Source: Colwellia sp. Arc7-635 (GTDB lineage: Bacteria; Pseudomonadota; Gammaproteobacteria; Enterobacterales; Alteromonadaceae). From it: DNA of 64,000 nucleotides. The position numbers and the translations under genes are program-made. The notes under the pieces were generated by a model, which was not told the origin of the DNA, searched no databases, and worked only from the letters and a program-made list of their open reading frames with translations. How positions within the stretch are numbered: position 1 is the stretch's first letter; each line of letters starts with the position of its first letter. Of the stretch, positions 3,381 to 38,544 are shown in pieces. The stretch is taken from NCBI RefSeq assembly GCF_003971255.1, contig NZ_CP034660.1:1550001-1614000 (forward strand), given 5' to 3'.

Positions 3381-3646
3381 TATACCCAAGCCGCTTGAAG
3401 ATACAGGATTCAGCAAGTCGAGAAAGGGTTAGCACCAAGGCATTGGTTGAAGAGAATGGTTGTTCCATTGTCGAAATCAATAACGCTGGAGATGACCCTT
3501 TATCGCCTTGCCCGAAGGGAACTAAGCTAGAAAACCAGCTCCGCGTTGCAGCACTTGATAAGGGAATAACCATTGTCTTCGTGCTGCGCCTTGATCTGAT
3601 TTCCTAGCTTGGCTCTGAAACTGCATCTTCAAGTGGTTTGGGTATA
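3381..3646 (+). repeat. 266-bp foldback element, copy 1
   Basis: First of three copies (others at 6188-6453 and 33140-33405), all exactly 266 bp. The ends are 26-bp terminal inverted repeats starting TATACCCAAG and ending TTTGGGTATA, 23 of 26 matched in this copy. Whole halves align as an imperfect palindrome. The left half contains a 7-bp stem ATTGGTT/AATCAAT that keeps pairing through one G-U pair; the right half has GCAGCAC/GTGCTGC. The outermost TA on both sides fits insertion at a TA dinucleotide. It contains overlapping short open frames on both strands, but these are best explained by the palindrome and not by a gene. It lies between two divergently transcribed genes. Confidence 0.9.
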
Positions 3647-6135: not shown

Positions 6136-6187
6136 GCAGTTTATTTGACACGCTACAAAGGCAAGCTATTTCTTTATGAGCCGTTTG

Positions 6188-6453
6188 TATACCCAAGCCA
6201 CTTGAAGATGCAGTATTCAGCAAGTCGAGAAAGGGTTAGCACCAAGGCATTGATTGAAGAGAATGGTTGTTCCATTGTCGAAATCAATAACGCCGGAGAT
6301 GACCCTTTATCGCCTTGCCCTAAGGGAGCTAAGCTAGAAAACCAGCTCCGCGTTGCAGCACTCGATAAGGGAATAACCATTGTCTTCGTGCTGCGCCTTG
6401 ACCTGATTTCCTAGCTTAGCTCTGAAACTGCATCTTCAAGTGGTTTGGGTATA
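6188..6453 (+). repeat. 266-bp foldback element, copy 2
   Basis: Same length and orientation as copies 1 and 3. Terminal repeats begin TATACCCAAG and end GGTTTGGGTATA. In this copy the left hairpin stem is ATTGATT (6249-6255) with AATCAAT (6282-6288), and the right hairpin stem is GCAGCAC (6355-6361) with GTGCTGC (6388-6394). Both loops are 26 nt. The left loop holds an inner AATGG/CCATT stem; the right has the matching one with one mismatch. It sits between two genes of the same strand. Confidence 0.92.
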
Positions 6454-33139: not shown

Positions 33140-33405
33140 TATACCCAAGCCACTTGAAGATGCAGGATTCAGCAAGGCGAGAAAGGGTTAGCACCAAGGC
33201 ATTGATTGAAGAGAATGGTTGTTCCATTGTCGAAATCAATAACGCCGGAGATGACCCTTTATCGGCTTGCCCGAAGGGAGCTAAGCTAGAAAACCAACTC
33301 CGCGTTGCAGCACTCGATAAGGGAATAACCATTGTCATCGTGCTGCGCCTTGACCTGATTTCCTAGCTTAGCTCTGAAACTGCATCTTCAAGTGGTTTGG
33401 GTATA
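33140..33405 (+). repeat. 266-bp foldback element, copy 3
   Basis: Same length, orientation and ends as copies 1 and 2 (TATACCCAAG...GGTTTGGGTATA). Stem pairs ATTGATT/AATCAAT and GCAGCAC/GTGCTGC are both kept. Differences from copy 2 are scattered: G for T in GCAAGGCGAG, G for C in ATCGGCTTG, A for T in GTCATCGTG. Changes in the internal open frame hit all codon positions, which argues against a coding role. Confidence 0.92.
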
Positions 33406-38498: not shown

Positions 38499-38544
38499 TA
38501 TACCCACTCCACTTCAAAATGCAGCTTAAAGTGGAACGGGTATA
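38499..38544. repeat. 46-bp mini-element with the termini of the 266-bp family
   Basis: TATACCCACTCCACTT and AAAGTGGAACGGGTATA are inverted and separated by 13 bases. The outer TATACCC/GGGTATA and the -CCACTT- word match the 266-bp elements, but the whole interior is missing. It could be a deletion product or an independent short relative. Confidence 0.65.

Follow-up and report, generated by a model that had tools for sequence, protein, structure and literature searches.

What is conserved in a small repeat whose hairpins continue to pair while their stem sequences differ completely? The question is raised by three copies of one two-arm element in the window, by which we mean the whole 64-kb stretch of DNA that was analyzed. 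Copy 1 occupies positions 3381..3646, copy 2 positions 6188..6453 and copy 3 positions 33140..33405, all on the plus strand. They were delimited by sequence comparison, together with folding for copy 2, and a gap-free alignment confirmed the positions and the common length of 266 bp given in a preliminary description of this DNA. The shared foot and loop motifs and the differing 7-bp stems reported there were likewise found. The left arm reads AAGGC-ATTGATT-loop-AATCAAT-AACGC and the right arm, as its reverse complement, AAGGC-GCAGCAC-loop-GTGCTGC-AACGC, and both stems pair. In copy 1 the left stem is ATTGGTT/AATCAAT, and its pairing is saved by one G.T pair, also as described.

A covariance-model search of the window (E up to 1) returned six matches, which are the six arms of the three copies. 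With model R2, the core hairpin of each left arm was located on the plus strand, in the CAAGGC...AACGC sense, at 3435..3488 in copy 1 (E 1.3e-12), 6242..6295 in copy 2 (E 2.2e-13) and 33194..33247 in copy 3 (E 2.2e-13). The right-arm cores, whose sense is the minus strand, lie at 3541..3594 (E 2.6e-13), 6348..6401 (E 9.1e-13) and 33300..33353 (E 2.5e-12), respectively. When copy 2 was folded as RNA (z -12.7) or as DNA (z -12.0), 0 of 200 shuffles were as good in either case. The terminal inverted repeat (TIR) pattern had 11 matches in the window, compared with a shuffle mean of 0.98 and a shuffle maximum of 5. Two of these, at 38501-38522 (plus strand, 0 mismatches) and 38521-38542 (minus strand, 2 mismatches), make up a palindromic relic of a related element at about 38499..38544, unassigned to a strand, in which both terminal repeats are present without arms within some 46 bp. 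Similar TIR-only forms of 46-56 bp occur elsewhere in the same genome (L124, L132).

The arm core has a constant order: CAAGGC, a 7-8-bp stem of free sequence, GNAG(G), an inner hairpin, TCAA, the returning stem and AACGCNG. The inner hairpin has the form AATGGTTATTCC(N)TT or similar, as in AATGGTTATTCCNTT, and the core sits at the apex of a long hairpin arm, with left and right arms mutually inverted. One-arm elements are about 157-175 bp long. Two-arm elements, at about 260-274 bp, consist of two inverted arms, a small central hairpin of the CCCGAAGGG type and paired ends. The foot pattern CAAGGC-N32-60-AACGCNG had 113 matches in the host genome, compared with 3 for a reversed control pattern; many of them are arms of the 266-bp family, and some come from families with other ends and other stems. 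The distance from the terminal TA to AAGGC was 52-58 nt in 211 of 237 arms (47 of 64 with one value per terminal 8-mer), as measured over a bounded search range in a set where 183 of the 237 arms came from 260-274-bp elements and a two-arm element may contribute a value for each of its arms. Between families, the foot, the loop core and this spacing persist, while the stems and terminal repeats change in matched pairs. Families in GC-rich hosts have GC-rich stems and ends on an unchanged plan; ends were resolvable at only part of the loci compared. In some non-Colwellia elements (L351, L354, L355, L361) the ends are of the kind TAAGGAGCCTCTGATTAAT or TTAAGGAAACGCTGATC. These recall the MITEPsy1 repeat of P. 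syringae, given as GGAAGGTCTGAAAAAGCC (PMC3189936), so that the ends may imitate different IS families.

The host genome is a single contig of 4.74 Mb. At least 40 long copies were counted in it, from 40 of 119 candidates scored: 32 of 265-266 bp, five of 314-315 bp and three divergent. The 32 are dispersed and share at least 94% identity with copy 2 (range 94-100%, copy 2 included). The 314-315-bp copies carry an insert of about 49 nt within one arm. This insert is common to the 315-bp forms and appears by eye to form a hairpin; length classes of about 315 and about 363 bp were seen (L033-L037, L067, L112, L121-L123), and L112 has a loop insert in place of the arm insert. Among L001-L030, 22 copies are in plus and 8 in minus orientation. 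A second family in this genome (L070, L074-L077, L079-L082) is single-armed, about 160 bp long, with ends ATACCAAATG...CAATTGGTAT and the same CAAGGC/AACGCNG foot. A third repeat type (locus L071, positions 590428-591278 of the genome) has ends AACCTGAACTCTGGATAA, the same foot motif and the stem AAAACGT/ACGTTTT.

The covariation proposed in the preliminary description proved strong across genera, with double changes at 7/7 stem pairs in each of three alignments. In an alignment of 20 arms, the stem was 99.3% paired. Among 103 distinct arms found with model R1 (69 loci), 95.8% of stem cells were paired, with 43 distinct 7-mers (one gapped) serving as stems. The covariation score of these arms was 0.607; slid structures scored 0.029-0.068 and shuffles 0.188. 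In 84 distinct arms found with model R2 at 65 further loci, mostly in other taxa, 96.4% of cells were paired and the score was 0.641, compared with 0.057-0.125 for slid structures. The arm alignments were fitted to the model, which biases them toward the structure; stem A, the part of the arm stem that the model leaves out, is free of this fit. The inner hairpin is weaker, with one of its five pairs unpaired in about half of the rows of the 103- and 84-arm alignments. Uncompensated stem mutation, which the preliminary description had set against its own proposal, does occur in some copies (e.g., L009), but the high proportions of paired stem cells in the R1 and R2 alignments hold across families. 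Within the genus, depletion of shared variants in the core, compared with singletons, was not significant (36/175 and 31/118, p 0.26).

A protein-coding signal in the internal frame, the other counter-argument raised there, was not supported. An internal stop interrupts the 89-aa frame in 23 of 75 genus-level copies, and shared variants fall at codon positions 1, 2 and 3 in the numbers 55, 50 and 40; on these grounds a coding element was rejected. Singletons in this frame (window 6145-6414, 75 genus-level copies) show a mild third-position excess, at 26, 31 and 47.

Matched stems could also arise without selection. Quasi-palindrome correction, in which one side of a stem is rewritten from the other by template switching at replication, is a known mutational process at palindromes and would yield covariation by itself; the terminal repeats, which also change in matched pairs between families, are in keeping with it. 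This neutral process, however, predicts no asymmetry between G.T and A.C mispairs, and it leaves unexplained why foot, loop and spacing are alike across families. In a strand test, the two sides of stem A were aligned, each arm was read in its CAAGGC...AACGC sense, and G.T and A.C were scored alike. The 107 distinct arms of set A3 gave 88 G.T and 30 A.C in stem A, and 26 and 6 in stem B. With one arm per 75%-identity cluster of A3 and A5 combined (203 arms, 76 clusters), the G.T:A.C ratio in stem A was 85:16, with a bootstrap 95% interval of 0.77-0.90 for the G.T share over the 76 clusters. We thus regard neutral correction as a very improbable explanation.

The same test separates the strands. 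One RNA read from one strand would be expected to show the reverse mispair bias in one arm of an element. By arm, the clustered G.T:A.C ratios were 19:2 for first arms, 37:4 for second arms and 29:10 for arms without a detected partner. When the 75 genus-level copies were instead read on one fixed strand, G.T and A.C were about equal (160 and 189 cells), with 53:30 in left arms and 74:109 in right arms, matching the arm-sense prediction. The G.T excess in both arms, on opposite strands, argues that each strand folds whichever arm lies toward its 5' end and disfavors an RNA from one strand. In 23 single-arm elements the ratios were 36:8 in the outer stem and 33:14 in the inner stem; over 12 clusters they were 14:6 (p 0.12) and 20:11 (p 0.15), neither significant, so the strand bias in single-arm elements is suggestive only.

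Pairing is thus kept while sequence changes, and what is conserved in each arm is the fold of its own sense strand. The preliminary description had proposed a folded RNA or single-stranded DNA under selection. Its single-stranded fold stands, and a single RNA bearing both hairpins does not, since each arm is selected in its own sense and the two senses lie on opposite strands. The two hairpins seem not to be under joint selection on one strand. Single-copy variants at the genus level, in arm sense, were 20:18, compared with 114:36 in diverged arms (Fisher p 0.008). The contrast between unbiased singletons and biased diverged arms leads us to infer that selection acts when elements spread; it seems to fall on spreading rather than on resident copies.

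A rival reading is a structured RNA made from either strand. Its hairpin would act in transcripts, through stability, antitermination or protein binding, and the inverted arms would make it independent of orientation. Tolerance of G-U pairs predicts the excess of G.T over A.C, and the copies are mostly intergenic: 30 of 30 with 1.5-kb flanks by a simple ORF rule, while a second count placed 9 copies inside an ORF. Against an RNA function, the unbiased singletons give no sign of selection on resident copies. Orientation relative to co-directional flanking genes showed no significant preference in one count (38 sense, 43 anti); a second count of few cases gave 13 sense and 6 anti. No Rfam family reached its gathering score within the elements tested. 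One match, to MIR447 over the L332 element, had 56.7 bits (E 1.5e-8) compared with a gathering score of 200. Relative to replication, the sense strand likewise showed no consistent bias in three genomes (leading:lagging 31:41, 12:16 and 13:4, the last nominally p 0.049). IS200/IS605-type transposition is coupled to replication, and the lack of a consistent replication or transcription bias argues weakly against such a route as well as against a cis-acting RNA. A structured RNA is, in our judgment, an improbable account of the element.

The element is widespread, with relatives in marine and other bacteria. It was found by blastn in 23 of 40 relatives. Covariance models found related arms in 53 of the 148 species sampled from the order, at E up to 1e-4; the figure for the class was 51 of 369, at E up to 1e-6, and that for a sample of the phylum 16 of 299, including 8 from outside the class. 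Thresholds differ among these four counts, all of which include the host genome. Hosts among the 80 stretches listed, of at least 120, include Colwellia, Shewanella, Psychromonas, Moritella, Thalassotalea and Catenovulum. Metagenome-assembled genomes labeled, for example, as Nitrosomonas or Bacteroidetes may be binning errors. A search of phages gave no match, and viral contigs gave none for one exact pattern. Copies do occur in plasmid records of Pseudoalteromonas, Azotobacter, Halomonas and P. aeruginosa. In a plasmid of P. aeruginosa PA83, typed as IncP and conjugative, a two-arm copy (within locus L368, 7049-10319) lies between acyl-CoA dehydrogenase and CoA-transferase genes.

The TA flanks described earlier were found in part: the context A-TA-CC...GG-TA-T is constant, but there is no regular extra TA outside TATACCC...GGGTATA. 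The context A-TA...TA-T was present in 213 of 217 elements beginning with CC, and C-TA...TA-G in 13 of 20 beginning with GT or GG; 24 elements begin otherwise. The overall NTAN context was seen in 241 of 261 elements, in a search that required TA ends and in which many CC-type elements came from Colwellia and its kin. For one copy an empty site was found in a congener (G001; 85% identity over the joined flanks). This site is 2 nt longer at the junction than the flanks joined without TATA at either end, which would fit a TA duplication, but the TA repeats there allow only a tentative reading. Mobility is indicated by this empty site, by the dispersed copies 94-100% identical to copy 2 in the host genome and by the copies on Azotobacter, Halomonas and P. 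aeruginosa plasmid records. A dispersed TA-context repeat for which a gene of its own was not supported agrees with the TA-targeting non-autonomous element suggested at the outset.

Such a context is also what an ordinary IS630 (Tc1/mariner)-dependent MITE would show, with a DDE transposase binding the terminal repeats as duplex and inserting at TA, and with the internal hairpins incidental. IS630-family elements insert at TA with TA duplication, and CTAG is preferred by an IS630-associated composite transposon according to a title cited in the same source (PMC2170065); both fit the A-TA-T and C-TA-G contexts. At 5 of the 9 loci examined, the IS630 elements of two congeners have ATACCAATCTGCA ends, much like the ATACC ends of the element. 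The end ATACCAA is common to the element and to the IS630 of those two congeners, not to an IS630 of the host genome, from which the IS630 transposase models NF033545 and PF13358 were absent. One Azotobacter copy adjoins an IS630 gene. DDE_3, however, was present in 7 of 21 high-copy genomes and absent from 14, the host included, and it was present in 4 of 19 genomes without an element match, in one case with a score under the family cut-off. IS630 therefore does not track the element, and with no co-occurrence and none in the host genome it was rejected as a general mobilizer. IS630 dependence also leaves unexplained the conserved core with its free stems, the strand-specific tolerance of G.T and the terminal repeats that change in matched pairs. 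We consider it unlikely.

Other candidate enzymes were sought. The Y1 transposase family PF01797 had 0 matches in the host genome, in a search that was positive in 5 of 14 control genomes, and a Y1/RAYT origin was rejected on this basis. Recurrent neighbor genes formed 9 clusters of at least 3 loci each, none bearing a label that we recognize as a transposase. In 20 stretches surrounding listed TIR ends, plausible pairs of ends give spans of 46-363 bp. Longer spans, from 905 to 5832 bp, exist on paper, where they cross ends with nearer partners, and some ends are partnerless within their stretch. The 16 ORFs beside TIR ends that had no near partner or that bounded long gaps contained no Pfam transposase family, and 4 of the 16 had no Pfam match. 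An autonomous copy was rejected on these spans and ORFs among the first 100 of 202 TIR ends; one may have been missed beyond this scope.

On balance, we regard the repeat as probably a non-autonomous, MITE-like mobile element in TA context, belonging to a widespread superfamily and recognized by its folded shape. The evidence suggests that a folded single strand, rather than sequence, lets it spread. In such a mechanism, a trans-acting enzyme would recognize the extruded or single-stranded core hairpin and would act at a TA in the context A-TA-T or C-TA-G. With two inverted arms, each strand, or each end, would have a recognition hairpin to itself; selection would operate during spreading, and copies would drift after insertion. 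More tentatively, we propose that the superfamily may represent a class of mobile DNA identified by its folded single strand and not by terminal sequence. Members would share an enzyme that recognizes a core hairpin, some 54 nt long and set at a constant distance from a TA, which would leave stems and terminal repeats free to drift in matched pairs in Gammaproteobacteria and outside them. Thanks to the two inverted arms, either strand, or each end, could serve as a substrate.

The usual way of classifying small bacterial repeats is by sequence, with their ends used to trace them to an insertion sequence. Families unlike in stems and ends, and united by a fold, a spacing and a few unpaired letters, could have their kinship missed by repeat finders based on sequence. 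The question of what moves MITEs without a matching IS becomes testable, as a search for a protein that binds the CAAGGC/AACGC hairpin. The strand-resolved comparison of G.T with A.C gives new evidence, of an evolutionary kind, that the working form of each arm is a folded single strand.

Among known systems, the integron attC site is a DNA hairpin that is recognized through its structure, folds in a strand-specific way and leaves its stem sequence free; the element as proposed here would resemble it in these respects. Unlike attC sites, which are cassette junctions, the element forms dispersed TA-context insertions with paired ends. The IS630-type MITEs share the A-TA-T or C-TA-G context, and the ends of the element are like those of IS630 in two congeners; they differ in that the terminal repeats here change between families in matched pairs around a conserved internal hairpin core, and in that DDE_3 is missing from most high-copy genomes. 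REPINs and BIMEs are described as non-autonomous, intergenic pairs of inverted units, with compensatory changes and with hairpins predicted in ssDNA or mRNA (PMC3116915). The element likewise has two inverted hairpin units (and single-arm forms besides), is non-autonomous and mostly intergenic, and shows compensatory changes. It differs in its length of about 266 bp, its paired ends and TA context and its CAAGGC/AACGC foot, where REP tags are GTAG or CGTC by the title of PMC3733652. REPINs and BIMEs are also linked to RAYT Y1 transposases, whereas the host genome is without Y1. ERIC, NEMIS, YPAL and other structured bacterial repeats are presented as small, mostly intergenic palindromes with predicted shared folds (PMC2267715, PMC10969869), as the element is. 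The families in those sources were built by sequence clustering, whereas the families described here keep their fold and core through the replacement of stems and ends. No named family had been known to the preliminary description, which agrees with the Rfam result and with the open-licence PMC literature, where no description was recognized as of the CAAGGC/AACGC family. Of the families tested, the element belongs to none, the REPIN and the IS630-type MITE each failing a defining test here; by analogy, it may work like structure-recognized mobile DNA such as REPINs or attC sites.
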